From the NCBI GenBank assembly GCA_015272515.1, contig JACYLN010000055.1:1-38101 (forward strand): a stretch of 38,101 bases of DNA, read 5' to 3'. This DNA is from Leptolyngbyaceae cyanobacterium C42_A2020_001. GTDB taxonomy: Bacteria > Cyanobacteriota > Cyanobacteriia > Leptolyngbyales > Leptolyngbyaceae. Shown in pieces: positions 11,901 through 32,918 of this stretch. The notes under the pieces were generated by a model. It ran no database searches, was not told the DNA's origin, and saw nothing but the letters and a program-made list of their open reading frames with translations. Numbering within the stretch: position 1 is the first letter of the stretch; each line of letters opens with the position of its first letter. The position numbers were made by a program, and so were the translations under genes.

Positions 11901-13322
11901 TTACTGGCCGGAGTTGACTCCCCGTTTAACTGGTTTGGGTTTAGGACCAGAGTGCCCTCCCCTAGCCGAGTGAGTTTGAGGAGCGGGATCATCCCACTGA
12001 TCACCCGCTTCTTGAGCAGTTCTCATCCAGGCAGGACGGGTTTGATCGTAGGCCATCTGCAAGGCAGCCGCTGCGATCGCGTGAGGTTCATATTCCTCCG
12101 ACAGTTGCGCCACAATTGGCAAGAAGGATGCCATGCGTTCGCCTGCCAGTGCTTCCCGCAGGGAGGCTTGCAACTTCTCGATCTGTCGTGCTTCAATCTC
12201 AGCGCGAGTCGGAATCGAGGCGATCTCCAAACGTTGACGGATGTGATTCTCGATGTCTTTCAGCTTGCGCCGATCCAGTGAGTGGATCAGAGAAATCGCC
12301 GTTCCCTCTTTCCCAGCGCGTCCTGTCCGTCCAATGCGGTGGACATAGTTTTCCACACTGTCGGGCAGGTCGTAATTAATTACGTGGGTCAGGTCATCGA
12401 CGTGAATTCCTCGGGCGGCAATATCGGTGGCAACTACCCAGCGCACCTGTCGTTGCCGGAAGCGCAGCAGCAACCGTTCGCGCTGAGTTTGGCTAAGATC
12501 GCCGTGGTATTCATCCACACTGTGTCCAGCGGCTTGCAGTTGGCTGGTTAGCTCGGCAGCCGATTTCCGAGTCCGCACAAAGATGATTGCCGAATCGGGA
12601 TCTTCCAATTCCAAAATAGGCAGTAAGGCGCGGGCTTTTGTCCAACCACGAGGTACGAGGTAGGCAACCTGGTTAATCCGCGTTGGTGCGGCTTTGGGTT
12701 GCTCGATCGTGATTGTTACGGGCGATCGCAGGAACTTGGTCACCAACTTGCGAATCGAGGGATCCATCGTGGCGGAGAAGAATGCGGTTTGCCGCTCGGT
12801 GGGTGCCTGATTGAGGATCTTCTCAACATCCTGAATAAAGCCCATATTCAGCATTTCGTCGGCTTCATCCAACACCAACCAGTTGACCTGGTTCAGCTTC
12901 AAATCGCCGCGATTCAACAAATCCAGTACCCGACCTGGTGTGCCTACCACAATCTGAGCACCGCGCTGAAGCCGAGAAATTTGCGGATCGATCGCTTGCC
13001 CGCCATAAATCGTTAACACTCGTAAACGGCGATCGTCATTAAAACCGCGAATCGCTTGACCAACCTGCAACGCCAGTTCTCGCGTTGGCGTTAGGATTAA
13101 TGCCTGAACTGCTGGGGACTTGACATCGATCCGCTCCATGATGGGCAGCGAGAACGCGGCAGTTTTGCCAGTGCCAGTTTGCGCCTGACCCACCACATCC
13201 CGTCCGGAGAGAAGATGGGGGATTGCCTGCGCCTGAATTGGAGTGGGAGTCGTGAAGCCAATTTCTTCTAAGTAACGACTGCGAAGCTCAGAAAGTCCAA
13301 GACTATGAAACGAAAGAGTCAT
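11901..13322 (-). CDS. DEAD-box ATP-dependent RNA helicase (Crh-type)
   Basis: Unwinds RNA duplexes at ATP cost; cyanobacterial members of this group are linked to cold and redox responses. The 473-residue product shows Q motif (FTTPTPIQAQAIP), motif I AQTGTGKT, Ia PTRELA, GG, TPGR, motif II DEAD, motif III SAT, and in the second RecA domain IIFVRTR, ATDIAARG and HRIGRTGRAG. After the core (about residue 365) comes a helical extension and then a glycine/lysine/proline-rich tail (SARGGHSGPKPKPVKRG) suited to RNA contact. The ATG at 13322 is chosen over an upstream reading (13409) because AAGGAG stands six bases before it and the protein then begins MTLSFHSLGL. rimO lies upstream on the same strand, with a hairpin and T-runs between the two. 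Confidence 0.94.
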   Translation of the reverse strand: MTLSFHSLGLSELRSRYLEEIGFTTPTPIQAQAIPHLLSGRDVVGQAQTGTGKTAAFSLPIMERIDVKSPAVQALILTPTRELALQVGQAIRGFNDDRRLRVLTIYGGQAIDPQISRLQRGAQIVVGTPGRVLDLLNRGDLKLNQVNWLVLDEADEMLNMGFIQDVEKILNQAPTERQTAFFSATMDPSIRKLVTKFLRSPVTITIEQPKAAPTRINQVAYLVPRGWTKARALLPILELEDPDSAIIFVRTRKSAAELTSQLQAAGHSVDEYHGDLSQTQRERLLLRFRQRQVRWVVATDIAARGIHVDDLTHVINYDLPDSVENYVHRIGRTGRAGKEGTAISLIHSLDRRKLKDIENHIRQRLEIASIPTRAEIEARQIEKLQASLREALAGERMASFLPIVAQLSEEYEPHAIAAAALQMAYDQTRPAWMRTAQEAGDQWDDPAPQTHSARGGHSGPKPKPVKRGVNSGQ

Positions 13323-13338
13323 TGAATCTCCTTGAATA
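13323..13338 (-). promoter_or_regulatory. ribosome-binding site of the DEAD-box helicase
   Basis: On the minus strand the sequence reads ...CAAGGAGATTCAATG. The AAGGAG element is well placed and decides the ATG at 13322 over the longer in-frame reading. Confidence 0.75.
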
Positions 13339-13369
13339 GAAGGAAGTAAATAAAAAACACAAAAAACAC

Positions 13370-13402
13370 TCAAAAACCTATGAATCAGGTCAGCGCCTGA
13401 TT
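13370..13402 (-). terminator. hairpin plus T-runs between rimO and the helicase gene
   Basis: AATCAGG (13383-13389) / CCTGATT (13396-13402) form a perfect 7-bp stem with a 6-nt loop. On the minus strand the stem is followed after six bases by TTTTT, then TTTTTT runs. It lies after rimO and about 60 bases before the helicase start, so it could end rimO transcripts or act as an attenuator in the helicase leader. Confidence 0.5.
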
Positions 13403-13430
13403 GAGGCATTTAGCGATCGCAACGAATGAC

Positions 13431-14786
13431 TTAAGGAACCGTCATTGGTTGACCTTTCAGCAAATCTGTCACCGTTGCCACATGACCATAGAGGTCGTAA
13501 ACATCTGCGTCATCGATCACAACCGAGACCAGTGACCCCAAACGGGCTTCGCCAGAGAGATACACGAGTCCATCAACATCAGGGGAGAACCGAGCAGAGC
13601 GCCCAATCAATTCACCCGTGGCGGGGTTTTCTTGCTCAATTAATACATCTACAACCCTGCCAATTTCCTTGCGGTTCTGCTTCAAAGAAATTGGTTGCTG
13701 TACTTGCATCAAAGCATCTCTGCGAGCCTCCATAACAAGACTGGATAACTGGTTCGGTAAATCGTAAGCTGGAGTTCCCTCTTCGGGAGAGAACGTAAAC
13801 ACCCCGACATGGTCAAACTCGTGGCGTTGTACAAACTGAAGCAGATGTTCAAAGTGCTCCTCAGTTTCGCCCGGAAAACCCACAATAAACGTTGTTCGCA
13901 ACACAGCATCAGGAATGGCTTCTTTTAACCGCTCAATGATGCAATCGTTAACTTGTCCTTGCCAGGGACGATTCATTGCTCGCAACACTTCCGGATGGGA
14001 GTGCTGGAGGGGTAAATCCAAATAGGGCAAAACGTTTGGCGTGTCCTGAATGGCAGCAATGACATCAGATGTTAACCCGGTGGGGTAAGCATAATGCATC
14101 CGAATCCAGGGCACATCTACCTCACCTAGTGCCCGCAGCAGTTCCGCCAGCTTGGGCTTGCCGTAGAGGTCAATCCCGTAGTTGGTAGTGATCTGGGAGA
14201 TCAAAATGATTTCCTGAACACCTTCTGCTGCAAGCTGGTTGGCTTCTGCCACGATGGACTCAATGCTGCGCGATCGCTGCTTCCCCCGCAGATGAGGAAT
14301 AATGCAAAATGCACAGCGATAGTCACAGCCCTCAGCAATTCGCAGGTAAGCAATCCCCTCCGTAGTTGTGCGATAACGCGGTGTGGTTTCATCAGCGATG
14401 TAAGTCGGTTCTGGGGAAACCTCTTTCACCCGTTCTCCGGCTTCTGCTCGCTCAATCACGTCCACAATTTTGTGATAGTCACCCGTACCGACTAACGCCA
14501 CGGCTTCGGGAATTTCTTGCAGCAATTCATCTTGAAAGTGCTGCGCCATGCATCCCGTAATCACGATTTTCTTGTCACTCTCTGCCAGTTCTACCAACGT
14601 GCGAACGGATTCTTCGCGTGCGGACTGGATAAAGCTACACGTATTGACAATGACGTAATCAGCCAGTTCATCATTCGCACTAACTGCGTAGCCAGCCTCT
14701 GCTAGTAAACCCAGCATATGCTCTGTGTCAATCCGATTTTTCTCGCATCCAAGATGAGAAATGGCAATGCTCGGCTTATTGCCCAT
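13431..14786 (-). CDS. rimO: ribosomal protein S12 (aspartate) methylthiotransferase RimO
   Basis: Radical-SAM enzyme that methylthiolates a conserved aspartate of ribosomal protein S12. The 451-residue protein has the N-terminal MTTase domain with three cluster cysteines (Cys14 in HLGCEKNR, Cys50 in NTCSF, Cys79 in TGCMAQ), the radical-SAM domain with CDYRCAFC (Cys154, Cys158, Cys161), and a C-terminal TRAM domain (about residues 375-445). [16 protein letters not shown] at the N-terminus and [13 protein letters not shown] distinguish RimO from MiaB. It may share a transcript with the downstream helicase, though a terminator-like hairpin separates them. Confidence 0.96.
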
Positions 14787-26708: not shown

Positions 26709-27005
26709 GGGTGAACAAACTGACACACCCTTCTAATCTATCGCTTTCACAAGCCAGGGGATTGAGAAGTTCTCATCAGCAAGCCCATCAAAGCTGTTGT
26801 GCGATCGCGGTAAACGAGGTTTACACCAATGGTTGCAGCACTGCCAGGCAAATAAGTCGTCAATGGCTTCCCAATTCTTGTCAATCCGTTATCGTACTGC
26901 TCTGTGACCTTGAATTCTGTAGAAGTTTATAGTGCGATCGCTAACCTCATAGGGAATTTTAGAGTTTATGAAATTGAATTGGGTTCACATCACTCACCCA
27001 CACCT
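26709..27005. promoter_or_regulatory. divergent intergenic region before the giant kinase
   Basis: A spacer of 297 bases between two divergent genes must hold both promoters. A HIP1-type GCGATCGC lies near 26804 and 26935. An in-frame GTG at 26904 would extend the kinase by 34 residues (through LIGNFRVYEIELGSHH), but the kinase domain begins well after the ATG at 27006. I see no clear operator or riboswitch. Confidence 0.4.
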
Positions 27006-30000
27006 ATGAAACCTGCTGTAAATACCTCTTTTCGTGCTCCTGCTGCGATCGCTGGCTATACCATTGTCGAACAACTGTATCTCGGTTCTCGAACGGTTGT
27101 ATACCGAGCCGTGCAAGCGAACTCGCAGCATCCAGTGGTGATTAAGGTGTTGCGGCGCGACTATCCAACCTTCAGCGAATTAGTTCAGTTTCGCAATCAG
27201 TACACGATCGCTAAAAATCTTAACATTCCAGGAATCGTTCAGCCGTTGAGTCTGGAATCTGTGGGCGGCGGCTATGCGCTGGTGATGGAAGATTGGGGTG
27301 GAGTGGCGTTGAGCAAGTACACGAAGCAACCGTTGTTAGATGGGACGCAGGTGTTAGCGATCGCCCTTCAACTCGCCGATATTCTCCACGATCTGAGTCA
27401 GTATCGCGTGGTGCATAAAGATCTCAAGCCTGCCAATATTCTGATTCATCCTGAGACGAAACAGGTCAAACTGATTGACTTCAGTATTGCCTCGCTGTTG
27501 CCCAAAGAAACCCAGGAGATTCAGAATCCTAACGGGCTGGAGGGAACCCTGGCTTATCTATCGCCAGAGCAGACCGGACGCATGAATCGGGGAATCGACT
27601 ATCGCAGCGATTTTTACTCATTAGGCGTAACGTTGTTTGAACTACTCACTGGACAGTTACCCTTCCAGTCTTCTGACCCGATGGAATTGGTGCATTGTCA
27701 CCTGGCACAACAGCCCCCTTCCGTGTGCGATGTCAATCCAGACTTACCCTTAATGCTGGGCGAGATCATCCGCAAACTCATGGCGAAGAATGCTGAGAAC
27801 CGCTACCAAAGTGCTTTAGGACTAAAGCACGACCTGATGAAATGTCAGGAAGAGTGGCACATCATGGGTAAACACGCCTGGTTTGAGTTGGGGCAGCGGG
27901 ATGTGTGCGATCGCTTCCTGATTCCGGAAAAACTCTACGGACGGGAGGCAGAGGTGCAAACCCTGCTGGAGGCATTTGGACGAGTCGCCAACGGTGCGTC
28001 TGAATTGCTGCTGGTGGCAGGCTTCTCAGGCATTGGCAAAACTGCTGTTGTAAACGAAGTGCATAAGCCGATCGTCCGCTGGAACGGTTACTTTATCAAG
28101 GGTAAGTATGACCAGTTTCAGCGCAATATTCCCTTTTCTGCCTTTGTCCAGGCGTTTCGCGACCTGATGGGACAATTGCTGAGTGAAAGTGATGAGCAAT
28201 TGGCGCAGTGGCAAGCCAAAATCCTGGCGGCGGTAGGCGAGAACGGGCACGTGTTGATTGAGGTGATTCCAGAACTGGAGCAGATCATCGGCAAGCAACC
28301 GCCCGCCCCCGAACTCTCTGGCAGTGAGGCTCAGAACCGCTTCAACTTGCTGTTTCAGAAGTTTGTCCAGGTGTTTGCTACCCCAGAGCATCCGTTAGTG
28401 ATCTTCCTTGATGACTTGCAGTGGGCTGATTCTGCGTCGCTCAACCTGATGCAACTGCTGATGAGTGGCAGCGATTGCGGCTATCTCTTCATTATTGGAG
28501 CATATCGGGATAACGAAGTGTTTGCGGCTCATCCCTTGATGCTGACGCTGAATGACATCCAAAAAAAACAGGCGATCGTCAACACGCTAACTCTAGCGCC
28601 CTTGAGCCAATCGGATATCAATCATCTAATTGCAGACACTCTCAGTTGTGCGCTCGATCTTGCCTTGCCGCTGACAGAGTTGGTGTATCAAAAAACCAAA
28701 GGCAATCCCTTTTTCACTACTCAGTTTCTCAAGGCGCTACACGAAGACAAGTTGATTACCTTTAATTGGGTAACAGGTTCCTGGCAGTGTGATGTAGCGC
28801 AGGTGCGATCGCTCTCCCTCACCGATGATGTTGTAGAGTTTATGGCGCTTCAGCTCCAGAAATTGCCTGCTGAAACCCAGCGGATGCTGAAGCTGGCTGC
28901 CTGTATCGGAGCGCAGTTCGATCTGGAAACCCTGACAATCGTTTCAGAACAATCACATGAAGAAACGGCTGCACAGCTATGGAAAGCCTTGCAGGAAGGG
29001 TTTATTTTGCCTACTAGCCAGGTTTACAAGTTTTATCAAGACTCGTCATTGGTTACTGGTCATTCGTCATTGGTAGAAAAACAAATAACGAATGACAACG
29101 GACACGTGACAGTTTCCTACAAGTTTTTACACGATCGAGTTCAACAGGCGGCCTACTCACTCATCCCAACAGCCCAGAAAAAAGCAGCCCACCTCAAAAT
29201 TGGACAATTACTGCTGCAAAACACTGCGTCTGAAGCCATTGAAACGAGCATTTTTGATATTGTCGGTCAGTTAAATCAGGGAATTGAAATCCTCACCGAG
29301 CAACCAGAAAAAACTGAAATCGCCCAACTCAATCTGGTCGCTGGGAGAAAAGCAAAAGTTTCTACTGCTTATAAAGCAGCCGCTGAGTACTTTGCGATAG
29401 GCGTTCAGTTGTTGCCCGAAAATGGCTGGGAAACTCACTATAAACTTACCTTTGGACTTTATCGAGAACAGGCAGAGTGCGAATATCTGACGGGTAACCT
29501 CAATGCAGCAGAGAATCTGTTTGATCTCGCATTGAATCAGGCTCAAGACAAGTTTGATAAAGCCGATATTTACGCCATCCAGATGTACTTAAAAATGACC
29601 CAGGGCGAAAATATCCAGGCTGGTTTTGAAGCTGGACTGAAAGGGCTGAGCATTATGGGAATGCATCTGCCGCTCACGGTTGAAGAACAGCAAGTTGCCA
29701 TTAATAGTGAACTAAAAGAAATTCGCACTAAACTTGAAGCGGCCAATCCTGCAGATTTGTTTAATCAACCTGAGATGACCGAACCGATTAAAAAGGTTTG
29801 CATGAGTCTTTTAGCGGATCTGTGGGCAGCAGCATACATGGGAGGACATCAATACCTTTCGCATCTCAGTATGCTGTTAATGGTTAACACCTCATTAACT
29901 CATGGCAATGCTGAAAGCTCTGGGTTTGCTTACTGCCTTTATGGAATGAGCCTGGCAAATCAAGGAGACTATCAAACAGCCTATGAGTTTGGCACGTTAG

Positions 30001-32918
30001 CCCTGAAGCTCGATCGCCATTTCAATAGCACCAAATTCATCTATAAGACCAACAACATTTTTGCTCACACGATCAATCCCTACAGCCAACCTTTGAAAAC
30101 GAACTTACCCGTATCCCGGCAATCTTATCAAACCAGCCAGGAGGGTGGAGATGTGGTGTTTGGTGTTTGGGCAGTTTCGTTTCTCATCTGGGCCATGTTG
30201 GTGAAGGGCGATCACCTGTCTGATGTGTATGCTGAAACAGAAAAGTATCTGAATTACGTGCAGCAGGTAAACGATGTCAATATGCTGTATGCGTTCACAT
30301 TACAGCGACAGTTTCTCTTAAACCTGCAAGACCCCTCTCAGCCCACCGATTTGCTGGATGATCAGAATCACAATGACCGGGATGAGTCCGGCATTCCCCA
30401 CATTGAGATCTGGCGACAAAAGAGGAATTTTGAGCATGGAATTAACTGGTATTGCTTCCTCAAACTACAACTCTCGTACCTGTATGGGCGATATGAGGAG
30501 GCGATCGCAGCCGCAAATGAGGCGGAGCCAACCCTGCCCTCTAATGCGGGCTTTTTCCCAATTATTCAATACTATTTCTACTACCCGCTGAGTTTGGCAG
30601 CCCTCTATCCCACTGCTAACTCAGCAGAGAAAAATCAGTATTGGAAGATTTTGCAACAGCATCAGCAGACGGTTAAAAAATGGGCCAATCATTGCCCAGA
30701 GAACTTTTTGCATCGGTATCTGTTGCTCTCGGCTGAAATGGCACGCCTGACTGGCAATTATGCAGAGGCGATCGAGGGGTACGATCGAGCGATCGCCGCC
30801 GCCAAAGCGAACGAATATATCCACGAAGCAGCCCTTGCTAACGAACTCGCCGCTAAGTTTTATCTCAATTGGGGCAAGGAACGGATTGCCCAAGACTATG
30901 TGATCGAAGCTTACTATGGGTATGCCCGCTGGGGAGCCAAAGCTAAAGTTGCTGACCTGGAAACCCGCTACCCGAAACTGTTGGCACCCATTCTGCAACA
31001 AACTCGCACGCCTCTCTCGGTTAACGAAACCGTCTTTGCTGCTGGAGCAGTAGTCTCCAGCAGTTCCTCTTCCAGCGTTTCCGATTCGCTGGATCTGGCG
31101 GCGATTCTCAAAGCGTCTCAAACCCTCTCCAGGGAAATAGAACTCGATAAATTTCTGGCATCGCTGCTTTGTATCGTCATGGAAGGTGCAGGAGCGAACA
31201 GATGTGTCCTGCTGCTGCTGCGAGACAATCACCTGCTAATCAAAGGGTCAATGATGGCGGGAGCAGAGCCAGTTGTCTTGCAGCAGCTTCCCATTGAAGA
31301 GAGCCAGAACATTCCCCTGAAGCTGATTTACAAGGTCAAGCATGACCAACAAACCGTCGTACTGGTCGATGCCAGTGCTGATCCAACTCTTGCCAACGAT
31401 CCGTATGTTGCTCGTCAGCAACCGAAGAGTATTTTGTGCAGCCCAATCTTGCATCAAGGCAAGTTGATGGGTATTTTATATCTCGAAAATAGTTCAGTAA
31501 TAGGGGCATTTACTGCCGATCGCGTTGAGTTGCTCAATCTGCTCTGTGCTCAAACCGCCATCTCGTTAGAAAATGCTCGACTGTATGAGCGATCTCAACA
31601 ATATGCCCAGAAGCTAGAGCAGTCACTACAGCAATTGCGGGCTAGCGAAACCCGGTTTCAGAAGCTTGCCAATAATGTACCGGGCTTGATTTATCAAATT
31701 CAGATTGAAGCTGATGGTTCTGCTTCCATTCCTTTTGTCAGTTCTGGTTGTCAAACGCTCTATGAGGTGTCTGCCGAGGATTTGATGTCTGGAAAATGCA
31801 GCCTGCGTGACTTTGAACATCCCGACGATCGAGTGGAGAATTTACAGGCAACGATCGAGTCGGCGCAAGCACTCACCCCATTTCATCATGAGTGGCGAAT
31901 TATTACTCCTAATGGGAATCTGAAGTGGGTCAAAGCGGCCTCTCAACCAGACTCGAGAGAAGATGGAAAGGTTGTTTGGGATGGAATATTGATTGATATT
32001 ACCGATCGCAAAATTGCTGAGCAAGCTTTGGAACAAAAGACCCAGGATTTAGAGAAGGCTTTGAAAGATTTACAAAACACTCAGTTACAGCTTGTGCAGA
32101 GTGAAAAGATGTCGGCATTGGGGAATCTGGTGGCAGGGGTAGCACACGAGATTAATAATCCGGTTGGCTTTATTGCAGGCAACTTACAGCCTGCCTTCGA
32201 TTACATTCGAGATGTTTTTGGGCTACTGGAGTTATATCAGCAGGAATGTCCCAATCCCAGTCCTCTGATTCAACAAAAAATGGACGCGATCGATCTAGAG
32301 TATATCCGGGAAGACCTGCCAAAGCTAATCGACTCGATGAAACTGGGGGTCGATCGCATCCGCAGCATTAGCACCAGTTTAAGAACCTTTTCCAGAGCCG
32401 ACAAAGACTACAAAGTATTGTTCAACCTTCATGAAGGCATCGAGAGCACGATTCTGATTCTCAAACACAGATTGAAGGCAAATGACGATCGCCCTGCGAT
32501 TGAAGTTGTCACGAATTATGGCAGTATTCCTGCACTCAAGTGTTTTCCTGGTCAACTCAATCAGGTATTTATGAACATCATGGCGAATGCGATCGATGTC
32601 TTTGATGAAGCAGCACAACAGGCAACATTCGCTCAGCTGCAGACCAAGCCTCAGACCATCACCATTCAAACGGCACTGACACCATCAAATGCGATCGAAA
32701 TTCGGATTAGCGACAACGGGAAAGGGATGTCACAGGAGGTTAAAGCAAGAATCTTTGACCATTTGTTTACGACAAAAGAAGTCGGGAAAGGAACAGGATT
32801 GGGATTGGCGATCGCGCGTCAAATTATCGTCGAAAAGCATGGAGGCAGCCTGGAGGTTCAGTCTGAGGTGGGTCAGGGTACTGAGTTCTGCATTCAGTTG
32901 CCGCTGATTGTTAAGTAG
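27006..32918 (+). CDS. giant Ser/Thr kinase - AAA ATPase - GAF - PAS - histidine kinase
   Basis: A 1970-residue cytoplasmic signalling protein of the trifunctional type common in filamentous cyanobacteria. Order: Ser/Thr kinase (about 15-280; Lys47 in VIKVLRR, HKDLKPAN at 137-144, metal motif DFS at 158-160 instead of DFG); AAA-type ATPase (about 310-660; Walker A GFSGIGKT, Lys345; Walker B VIFLDDLQW at 465-473); a helical TPR-like region (about 770-1330); serine-rich linker; GAF (about 1360-1525); coiled coil; PAS (about 1550-1670); HisKA with His1714 (GVAHEINNPVGF); HATPase with DNGKGM and GKGTGLGLAIA. An unusual insertion of about 24 residues derived from an interspersed repeat lies near residue 680. 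ATG at 27006 is preferred to GTG at 26904. No response regulator is adjacent. Confidence 0.93.
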   Translation: MKPAVNTSFRAPAAIAGYTIVEQLYLGSRTVVYRAVQANSQHPVVIKVLRRDYPTFSELVQFRNQYTIAKNLNIPGIVQPLSLESVGGGYALVMEDWGGVALSKYTKQPLLDGTQVLAIALQLADILHDLSQYRVVHKDLKPANILIHPETKQVKLIDFSIASLLPKETQEIQNPNGLEGTLAYLSPEQTGRMNRGIDYRSDFYSLGVTLFELLTGQLPFQSSDPMELVHCHLAQQPPSVCDVNPDLPLMLGEIIRKLMAKNAENRYQSALGLKHDLMKCQEEWHIMGKHAWFELGQRDVCDRFLIPEKLYGREAEVQTLLEAFGRVANGASELLLVAGFSGIGKTAVVNEVHKPIVRWNGYFIKGKYDQFQRNIPFSAFVQAFRDLMGQLLSESDEQLAQWQAKILAAVGENGHVLIEVIPELEQIIGKQPPAPELSGSEAQNRFNLLFQKFVQVFATPEHPLVIFLDDLQWADSASLNLMQLLMSGSDCGYLFIIGAYRDNEVFAAHPLMLTLNDIQKKQAIVNTLTLAPLSQSDINHLIADTLSCALDLALPLTELVYQKTKGNPFFTTQFLKALHEDKLITFNWVTGSWQCDVAQVRSLSLTDDVVEFMALQLQKLPAETQRMLKLAACIGAQFDLETLTIVSEQSHEETAAQLWKALQEGFILPTSQVYKFYQDSSLVTGHSSLVEKQITNDNGHVTVSYKFLHDRVQQAAYSLIPTAQKKAAHLKIGQLLLQNTASEAIETSIFDIVGQLNQGIEILTEQPEKTEIAQLNLVAGRKAKVSTAYKAAAEYFAIGVQLLPENGWETHYKLTFGLYREQAECEYLTGNLNAAENLFDLALNQAQDKFDKADIYAIQMYLKMTQGENIQAGFEAGLKGLSIMGMHLPLTVEEQQVAINSELKEIRTKLEAANPADLFNQPEMTEPIKKVCMSLLADLWAAAYMGGHQYLSHLSMLLMVNTSLTHGNAESSGFAYCLYGMSLANQGDYQTAYEFGTLALKLDRHFNSTKFIYKTNNIFAHTINPYSQPLKTNLPVSRQSYQTSQEGGDVVFGVWAVSFLIWAMLVKGDHLSDVYAETEKYLNYVQQVNDVNMLYAFTLQRQFLLNLQDPSQPTDLLDDQNHNDRDESGIPHIEIWRQKRNFEHGINWYCFLKLQLSYLYGRYEEAIAAANEAEPTLPSNAGFFPIIQYYFYYPLSLAALYPTANSAEKNQYWKILQQHQQTVKKWANHCPENFLHRYLLLSAEMARLTGNYAEAIEGYDRAIAAAKANEYIHEAALANELAAKFYLNWGKERIAQDYVIEAYYGYARWGAKAKVADLETRYPKLLAPILQQTRTPLSVNETVFAAGAVVSSSSSSSVSDSLDLAAILKASQTLSREIELDKFLASLLCIVMEGAGANRCVLLLLRDNHLLIKGSMMAGAEPVVLQQLPIEESQNIPLKLIYKVKHDQQTVVLVDASADPTLANDPYVARQQPKSILCSPILHQGKLMGILYLENSSVIGAFTADRVELLNLLCAQTAISLENARLYERSQQYAQKLEQSLQQLRASETRFQKLANNVPGLIYQIQIEADGSASIPFVSSGCQTLYEVSAEDLMSGKCSLRDFEHPDDRVENLQATIESAQALTPFHHEWRIITPNGNLKWVKAASQPDSREDGKVVWDGILIDITDRKIAEQALEQKTQDLEKALKDLQNTQLQLVQSEKMSALGNLVAGVAHEINNPVGFIAGNLQPAFDYIRDVFGLLELYQQECPNPSPLIQQKMDAIDLEYIREDLPKLIDSMKLGVDRIRSISTSLRTFSRADKDYKVLFNLHEGIESTILILKHRLKANDDRPAIEVVTNYGSIPALKCFPGQLNQVFMNIMANAIDVFDEAAQQATFAQLQTKPQTITIQTALTPSNAIEIRISDNGKGMSQEVKARIFDHLFTTKEVGKGTGLGLAIARQIIVEKHGGSLEVQSEVGQGTEFCIQLPLIVK
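29040..29110 (+). repeat. interspersed repeat hairpin inside the giant kinase coding region
   Basis: GTCATTCGTCATT (29059-29071) and AATAACGAATGAC (29084-29096) form an inverted repeat with one mismatch and a 12-base loop; GTCATTGG copies flank the left arm. The wording (GTCATT repeated, then AACGAATGACAACGGAC) is that of short intergenic repeats of filamentous cyanobacteria. Here it is translated in frame as SSLVTGHSSLVEKQITNDNG, between a conserved VYKFY segment and the conserved VSYKFLHDRVQQAAY segment. Confidence 0.7.

Follow-up and report, generated by a model that had tools for sequence, protein, structure and literature searches.

How does a heptamer hairpin of the kind that lies between the genes of filamentous cyanobacteria come to be translated within a conserved signalling protein, and at which point in the history of the gene did it arrive? 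The question is raised by a contig of Leptolyngbyaceae cyanobacterium C42_A2020_001 (38,101 nucleotides, analysed as a whole and called the window), in which such a hairpin is read in frame within a giant kinase gene. A preliminary description made from the letters alone had proposed that a mobile or amplifying repeat entered the coding sequence as a lone insertion of about 24 residues between two conserved segments, with its absence from orthologues as support. The founding papers on these heptamer repeats, known as STRR, are those of Mazel in 1990 and Elhai in 2008. Below, homologous loci are numbered with L (L036 being the window gene) and genomes with G (G000 being the genome of the window).

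Results

The host gene and the hairpin element

The host gene (26904..32918, + strand, with an alternative ATG start at 27006) was delimited from the open reading frame list and Pfam domains. It is about 6 kb long and encodes a protein of 2004 residues of the HstK / cbSTKIII type, whose domain set comprises a Ser/Thr kinase, an AAA_16 ATPase, a TPR-like region, GAF, PAS and a histidine kinase. Pkinase (residues 53-310), GAF (1414-1555) and HATPase_c (1884-2001) all score above the Pfam cut-offs; HisKA and the TPR-like region score below them. The protein has the N-terminal Ser/Thr kinase with GAF and the C-terminal histidine kinase that define cbSTKIII / HstK, the name given to dual kinases of this architecture (PMC2176072). 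Protein searches of ten chosen genomes returned 10 to 22 paralogue matches per genome in nine of them and only 2 in the window genome. Two kinases of the sulfur bacterium Candidatus Parabeggiatoa sp. HSG14 (L073 and L126) are about 60% identical over the query and are placed among cyanobacterial sequences on the tree, which suggests a transfer of the kinase family.

The element occupies positions 29044-29110 of the window (about 67 bp) and consists of four heptamers followed by a spacer and then by a complementary arm, all described here on the + strand. Sequence reading and repeat search define the 5' arm (29045..29074; heptamers alone 29045-29072) as the in-register units GTCATTG, GTTACTG, GTCATTC and GTCATTG followed by GT. 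A spacer of 6 nt between the best arms (29075..29080, repeat search) leads to the 3' arm ACAAATAACGAATGAC (29081..29096; repeat search, fold and pattern search), which is complementary to the 5' arm and whose last 14 bases recur in a copy on contig C127 of the window genome. Outer, diverged 3' heptamers AACGGACACGTGAC (29097..29110; sequence reading and fold) pair in part with the outer 5' heptamer. The inverted repeat reported earlier at 29059-29071 / 29084-29096 exists, with 12 of 13 positions paired, and the repeat search places the best arms at 29059-29074 / 29081-29096 (16 nt, 88% complementary). The extent first given for it, 29040-29110, corresponds closely to the whole element, the diverged 3' heptamers running to about 29110. 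The RNA of this segment folds with -20.8 kcal/mol (z -2.67), and 3 of 200 shuffled sequences were equally stable. The window element therefore shows both the tandem 7-bp units and the hairpin-forming ability that characterise STRR.

As had been claimed, the element is in frame and free of stop codons within the ORF 26904-32918. Sequence reading and the translations of the units point to one codon in particular: GGA at 29100..29102 (+ strand) stands where the canonical heptamer AAATGAC would read TGA in the same frame. A 17-nt direct repeat (82%) on either side of the loop that holds the element might be taken for a target-site duplication, but both of its copies code for YKF, which may explain it, and like strands border the loops of element-free homologues. 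Neither a duplicated target site nor a clean empty site was seen; the element-free homologues have an unrelated loop at this place and not a gap.

Elsewhere in the window, a second small copy with the opposite arm order (AACGAATGAC, 10 nt, GTCATTGGTT) was found at 13421-13450, where the ORFs 11901-13409(-) and 13431-14786(-) meet. Its pattern, which was written from that very sequence, gave 1 match as compared with 0 in 100 shuffles.

The element resides in a variable loop

Homologues were collected by protein search from 58 relatives (46 with a match), from a collection with one genome per species for 84,980 species (top 80 loci) and from the ten chosen genomes. Loops could be read from 206 of 210 loci (L226, L228, L229 and L230 gave none), and removal of 16 duplicates left 190 unique homologues; 29 loci added later stand outside this count. 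In the alignment, a conserved YKFYQ strand (residues 708-712; 29025..29039, + strand) precedes a variable loop of 26 residues (713-738; 29040..29117, +) that holds the element, and a conserved YKFLHDR strand follows (739-745; 29118..29138, +). Counted from the ATG at 27006 and not from the GTG, the loop spans about residues 679-704, in agreement with the earlier placement around residue 680.

A loop between YKFYQ- and YKFLHDR-like strands is present in all 190 homologues and measures 8 to 61 residues, so that the site is not the gap-free junction into which a lone insertion had been envisaged but a place that varies in length in every homologue read. The window loop has 26 residues versus 14 in the nearest orthologue (L037, 80% identical), and the net gain over that orthologue is 12 residues instead of about 24.

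An AlphaFold2 model based on 37 sequences has a modest mean pLDDT of 68; the value drops below 50 at model residues 334-361, which lie between the strands 329-331 and 366-369. The best match in a Foldseek search of the PDB was Apaf-1 (E 8.5e-5), and a TPR-containing STAND protein ranked fifth (E 4.6e-4); sequence identities were 10-12% and the superpositions loose, the first five all having an rmsd above 10. Alignment and model indicate that the loop is probably the wing of a winged-helix subdomain between a STAND-like ATPase and the TPR region. The element probably has a small effect on the predicted protein, namely a longer, mainly disordered wing.

A dispersed, mainly intergenic repeat family

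Allowing at most one mismatch, the double heptamer GTCATTNGTCATTNG has 25 matches in the window genome versus 4 for the reversed-pattern control, from which about 4 of the 25 are expected by chance; a hairpin pattern has 11 matches versus 1 for its control. The matches fall at 21 distinct places including the window copy. Among the 20 others, 14 lie under no ORF of at least 90 aa, 4 at ORF starts and 2 inside ORFs. The latter two (L027 and L028) are one-mismatch matches, one ORF encoding a fatty acid desaturase and the other an FtsX-like permease, and we take both as chance matches. Of the 4 at ORF starts, one (L035) falls in the opening 29 codons of a permease ORF of 521 aa, ahead of its Pfam domain. 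Copies are thus dispersed and mainly intergenic in the host genome, as expected for STRR, though exact matches number only 6.

Exact matches to GTCATTNGTCATTNG, with overlapping registers counted, amount to 6 in the window genome, 4 in G002, 85 in G007, 202 in a Microcoleus host (G063) and 126 in a Richelia host (G064). Seven more hosts, six of them Nostocaceae and the seventh a Nostocales record, have 420 to 987 each, and the reversed controls gave 0 to 5 per genome. Other repeat words are distributed differently: TTCTGACTCCTG occurs 333 times in G059 and 40 times in the window genome, but 3 times in G058 and 4 times in G063, and ATTACCAATTACC 1235 times in G064 and 91 times in G063, but twice in G059. 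In Nostoc sp. KVJ20, none of 12 array places obtained from 30 fetched loci lies in the interior of an ORF. The earlier remark that GTCATT-type wording is typical of intergenic DNA is borne out by these relatives, which are mostly intergenic in both the window genome and Nostoc.

In the proposed search for further copies by nucleotide comparison, at E up to 0.001, the whole window genome contains no match beyond the query itself, and the dispersed relatives emerge from the pattern search; the copies are therefore members of a family and not near-identical repeats. Judged by these word counts and their controls, the element is a member of a dispersed, mainly intergenic family of GTCATTN heptamer hairpins of the STRR type.

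The same element in scattered homologues

Clear GTCATTN loops were found in L069, L070, L076, L078, L166, L170, L179 and L281, and decayed ones in L115, L172 and L282. These loops begin directly after YKFYQ, in the same orientation and phase as the window copy. GGA stands at the place equivalent to TGA in 10 of the 12 bearers (window gene included); the exceptions are L172, with no such codon at that place, and L282, with AGA. L069 moreover shares part of the spacer with the window element. Repeats of this kind can evidently enter coding sequence without breaking the ORF, as had been suggested, in the window gene and in several homologues. Additional short inserts that look like repeats, and which we take to be of the SDR type, are nested in frame inside the element in L078 (Nostoc sp. 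NMS4) and L069 (Nostoc sp. KVJ20).

Trees were built with the loop left out (74, 78 and 82 rows, picked by score plus named loci); they are quick searches, and recombination breaks their single-tree model. On the 74-row tree the window gene pairs with L037 (SH-aLRT 100), and the seven labelled bearers are scattered, with at least five changes forced by the starred branches and with the bearers L170 and L179 unlabelled. The bearer label requires 8 changes on the 78-row tree, which has 10 bearers, and 9 on the 82-row tree, which has 12. AU tests of a single bearer clade gave dlnL 953 and p 8.5e-41 for 7 of 74 rows (L170 and L179 unlabelled) and dlnL 1596 and p 5.7e-56 for all 12 bearers. A reduced set with one clear bearer per clade (4 of 61 rows), which leaves out other bearers, decayed copies and swapped sisters and for which bearers were chosen by loop sequence and sisters after the tree had been seen, gave dlnL 382 and p 1.5e-9, and with the window gene removed as well the remaining three bearers gave dlnL 158 and p 0.0014. 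Since the kinase genes of this family recombine, these values gauge conflict and not the number of insertions. A single origin followed by vertical descent was rejected by the loop-free trees and the AU tests, and on the loop-free tree the bearers are polyphyletic. Presence and conservation of the segment in the proteins of distant orthologues had been named as an observation that would refute the proposed insertion. This is seen in part: Nostoc homologues that are only distantly related have the same element-derived peptide, although its bearers are dispersed over the tree.

Mosaic flanks around the loop

The window gene and L037 diverge around the loop in a tract at 28937..29138 (+ strand), delimited by identity scans and segment tests, which we interpret as a tract of recombination. 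In 45-nt windows up to 240 nt from the loop, the two genes are 87-98% identical, but only 56-82% from about -120 to +45; at -105..-45 their identity is 65%, the lowest of 47 pairs whose distal flanks are 85-99% identical. The tract of L037 resembles L150, L095 and L116, GAEQ-type paralogues with a loop like its own, and the segments detected in L037 (-103..+20 with L150, -82..+11 with L095 and -103..+11 with L116) were each equalled in strength by 0 of 300 permutations. The same result (0/300) was obtained for the window gene with the heptamer donors L076, L070 and L166 and for L070 with L202 and L107. Weaker results came from L078 (13/300) and from L233 (19/300, with the segment away from the loop). 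All these tests cover 240 nt around the loop, and donors were picked after the identity scan. L069 and L233 are 89-98% identical in five flank blocks and have unrelated loops. Taken together, the mosaic tests support an exchange of loops between genes.

We had expected the dip in identity to be restricted to the loop, which was not borne out. In a gapped alignment of the whole fragments, the identity of L036 and L037 drops to 55-70% in four of the six 60-nt blocks that make up the stretch from -240 to -600; in the remainder it is mostly 83-98%. This second divergent stretch, about -240 to -600 upstream of the loop, involves no change in length and is probably another exchanged segment. Exchange or fast change in these genes thus goes beyond the loop and affects several segments, the loop being one.

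A recent lineage-specific insertion was first considered, since L037 is devoid of the element, and was dropped for two reasons. The loop and flanks of L037 match the GAEQ-type paralogues, so that L037 probably has no element because its loop was replaced, and L277, the next sister of the window gene and L037 (SH-aLRT 92), carries a possible decayed element, judged by eye. Absence from the orthologue, which the preliminary description would have counted in favour of an insertion, does not show a recent event here: the loop of L037 together with about 100 nt of its left flank looks replaced, and L277 may retain a decayed copy.

Heptamer arrays at other sites of the kinase family

Arrays of period 7 were scanned in 35-nt windows, with a minimum of 21 matches in 28 positions at a seven-base shift, and the strongest array outside the loop was kept for each homologue. 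Among the 190 homologues, 24 strong arrays were found, 9 in this loop and 15 elsewhere, with two homologues having both; codon-shuffled ORFs gave 0 of 570 with a strong array. The window copy itself scores below the threshold. The arrays outside the loop comprise 8 in a loop of the kinase C-lobe (about -1340 nt), another 5 in the linker that precedes the ATPase P-loop, and 2 at neither of these places.

Several loop peptides match the translations of heptamers of other families, namely GGGGACT as GDWGLGT (L221), CCCATCA as PITHHPS (L206), CCAATTA as PITNYQL (L087) and GGAGTCA as GVRSQES (L148). In-frame arrays in the C-lobe loop (HCHIAKxP...DIVMKLMAKN) were observed in L061, L085, L102, L122, L127, L179, L221 and L227, and this loop is an apparent second landing site in the family. 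L221 (Nostoc sp. KVJ20, G059:C36) carries two kinds of heptamer array, one in the C-lobe loop and one in the wing loop. The wing loop of L232 (G007:C2:1180000-1183000) contains a tandem minisatellite with LGDQNHPAP as the repeated unit, and the linker ahead of the ATPase in this homologue carries a heptamer array.

Discussion

We consider it most probable, at roughly two chances in three, that a tolerant loop took up an STRR-type hairpin on one or a few occasions, after which it was exchanged among paralogues by recombination. According to this scenario, deduced from sequence comparison, the hairpin would have landed in the wing loop in a stop-free orientation and phase, mostly with GGA replacing the expected TGA. 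It would have been tolerated there because the length of the wing appears to be unconstrained. Short-tract homologous recombination (gene conversion) could then have spread it to paralogues and strains and also removed it from them, aided by the conserved DNA that flanks the loop, with the loop as one of several exchanged segments.

The history could also have consisted of many separate entries, with hairpins inserting into the same loop again and again because it is a physical target or the sole place where insertions survive. The four unrelated heptamer families in the loops of L087, L148, L206 and L221, the recurrence of arrays at two other sites of the kinase family and the repeats nested within the heptamer loops of L069 and L078 all speak for repeated entry. 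However, the GTCATTN copies share position, orientation, phase, the GGA codon (10/12) and, in L069, part of the spacer, a combination not readily given by separate events, and their flanks are mosaic; we regard independent insertion of these copies as unlikely. A broader proposal, which we find distinctly improbable, would make the wing loop, the C-lobe loop and the linker between kinase and ATPase sites of diversification, into which filamentous cyanobacteria would feed intergenic heptamers and at which they would swap loop cassettes among paralogous kinases. If true, such sites would yield regulatory variety, as the hypervariable regions of NLR-like receptors do.

Capture with subsequent recombination has further to be weighed against readings in which the element is kept for what it does. 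A role in the mRNA, where the hairpin would slow ribosomes or protect the transcript at the boundary between ATPase and TPR region and the DNA or RNA form would be kept for that purpose, would suit the z of -2.67 of the window hairpin and the observation that 9 of 10 heptamer loops fold better than shuffled sequences (z -1.5 to -4.8), as compared with a median z of -0.48 in 74 other loops of like length. Inverted repeats fold well by origin alone, though, and some element-free loops fold equally well (L044, -5.6; L148, -5.3), although most do not; in L172 the hairpin is lost (z 0.1) and there is still no stop. We hold this role to be very unlikely. Least credible, to the point of being hardly tenable, is that SSLVxGH...QMTNDNGQMTVSYK is a selected motif of one kinase subfamily whose likeness to a repeat is incidental. 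The peptide does recur in frame in several homologues, but its bearers are not a single clade, and its sequence and hairpin match a family that has hundreds of matches in the same hosts and lies outside ORF interiors at the 12 places in KVJ20. Other repeat families occupy the same loop, and decayed and nested versions exist.

Filamentous cyanobacteria contain heptamer repeats in very large numbers, and the usual descriptions of them are of intergenic arrays; here such repeats have repeatedly been turned into protein sequence at recurrent sites of one signalling family, and the arrays appear to move among paralogues along with their flanks. The kinase loops therefore offer a natural experiment on non-coding repeats that become protein and a tractable place for the study of gene conversion. 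They also carry a warning, as a segment missing from the nearest orthologue can mean replacement and not the ancestral state.

Comparison with known systems

The window protein shares its domain architecture with the HstK / cbSTKIII dual kinases, but the kinase of the window has a repeat-bearing loop and the passages considered from PMC2176072 show none. No title or abstract opening on heptamer repeats in HstK-type kinases was found in the literature outside subscription papers, and the passages cited here contain no account of repeat capture by such kinases. STRR, described as 7-bp repeats that form hairpins between genes in Nostoc (PMC2670836), resemble the element in their 7-bp units, hairpin arrays and dispersed, intergenic occurrence, whereas the window array is part of the coding sequence of a protein loop and is found repeatedly within one gene family. 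In the P6b region of the Nostoc tRNA-Leu intron, heptamer blocks occupy a variable stem-loop and have been replaced time and again, each as a whole, in separate lineages (PMC4476775). There the loop is one of RNA, the motifs are TDNGATT and NNTGAGT, and the account given in that article reports no recombination in trnL, whereas here the loop is one of protein and its flanks are mosaic.

Rickettsia palindromic elements (RPE) are palindromic repeats translated in frame inside many genes (PMC10969869). They measure about 150 bp, encode a conserved family peptide and occur in many unrelated genes, whereas the window element comprises about 67 bp of heptamers and its type is seen in one kinase family, the sole family surveyed; only 2 other of the 21 places in the window genome and 0 of 12 in KVJ20 lie in ORF interiors. 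Within ORFs, TAACTGA heptamers of Beggiatoaceae and cyanobacteria are described only on the strand that is free of stops, where they mostly encode the ends of proteins or belong to hypothetical ones (PMC4679880). They share with the kinase loops the occurrence of heptamer arrays in ORFs where the strand is stop-free, but arrays of the window type differ in that they lie inside conserved multidomain kinases, at sites that recur.
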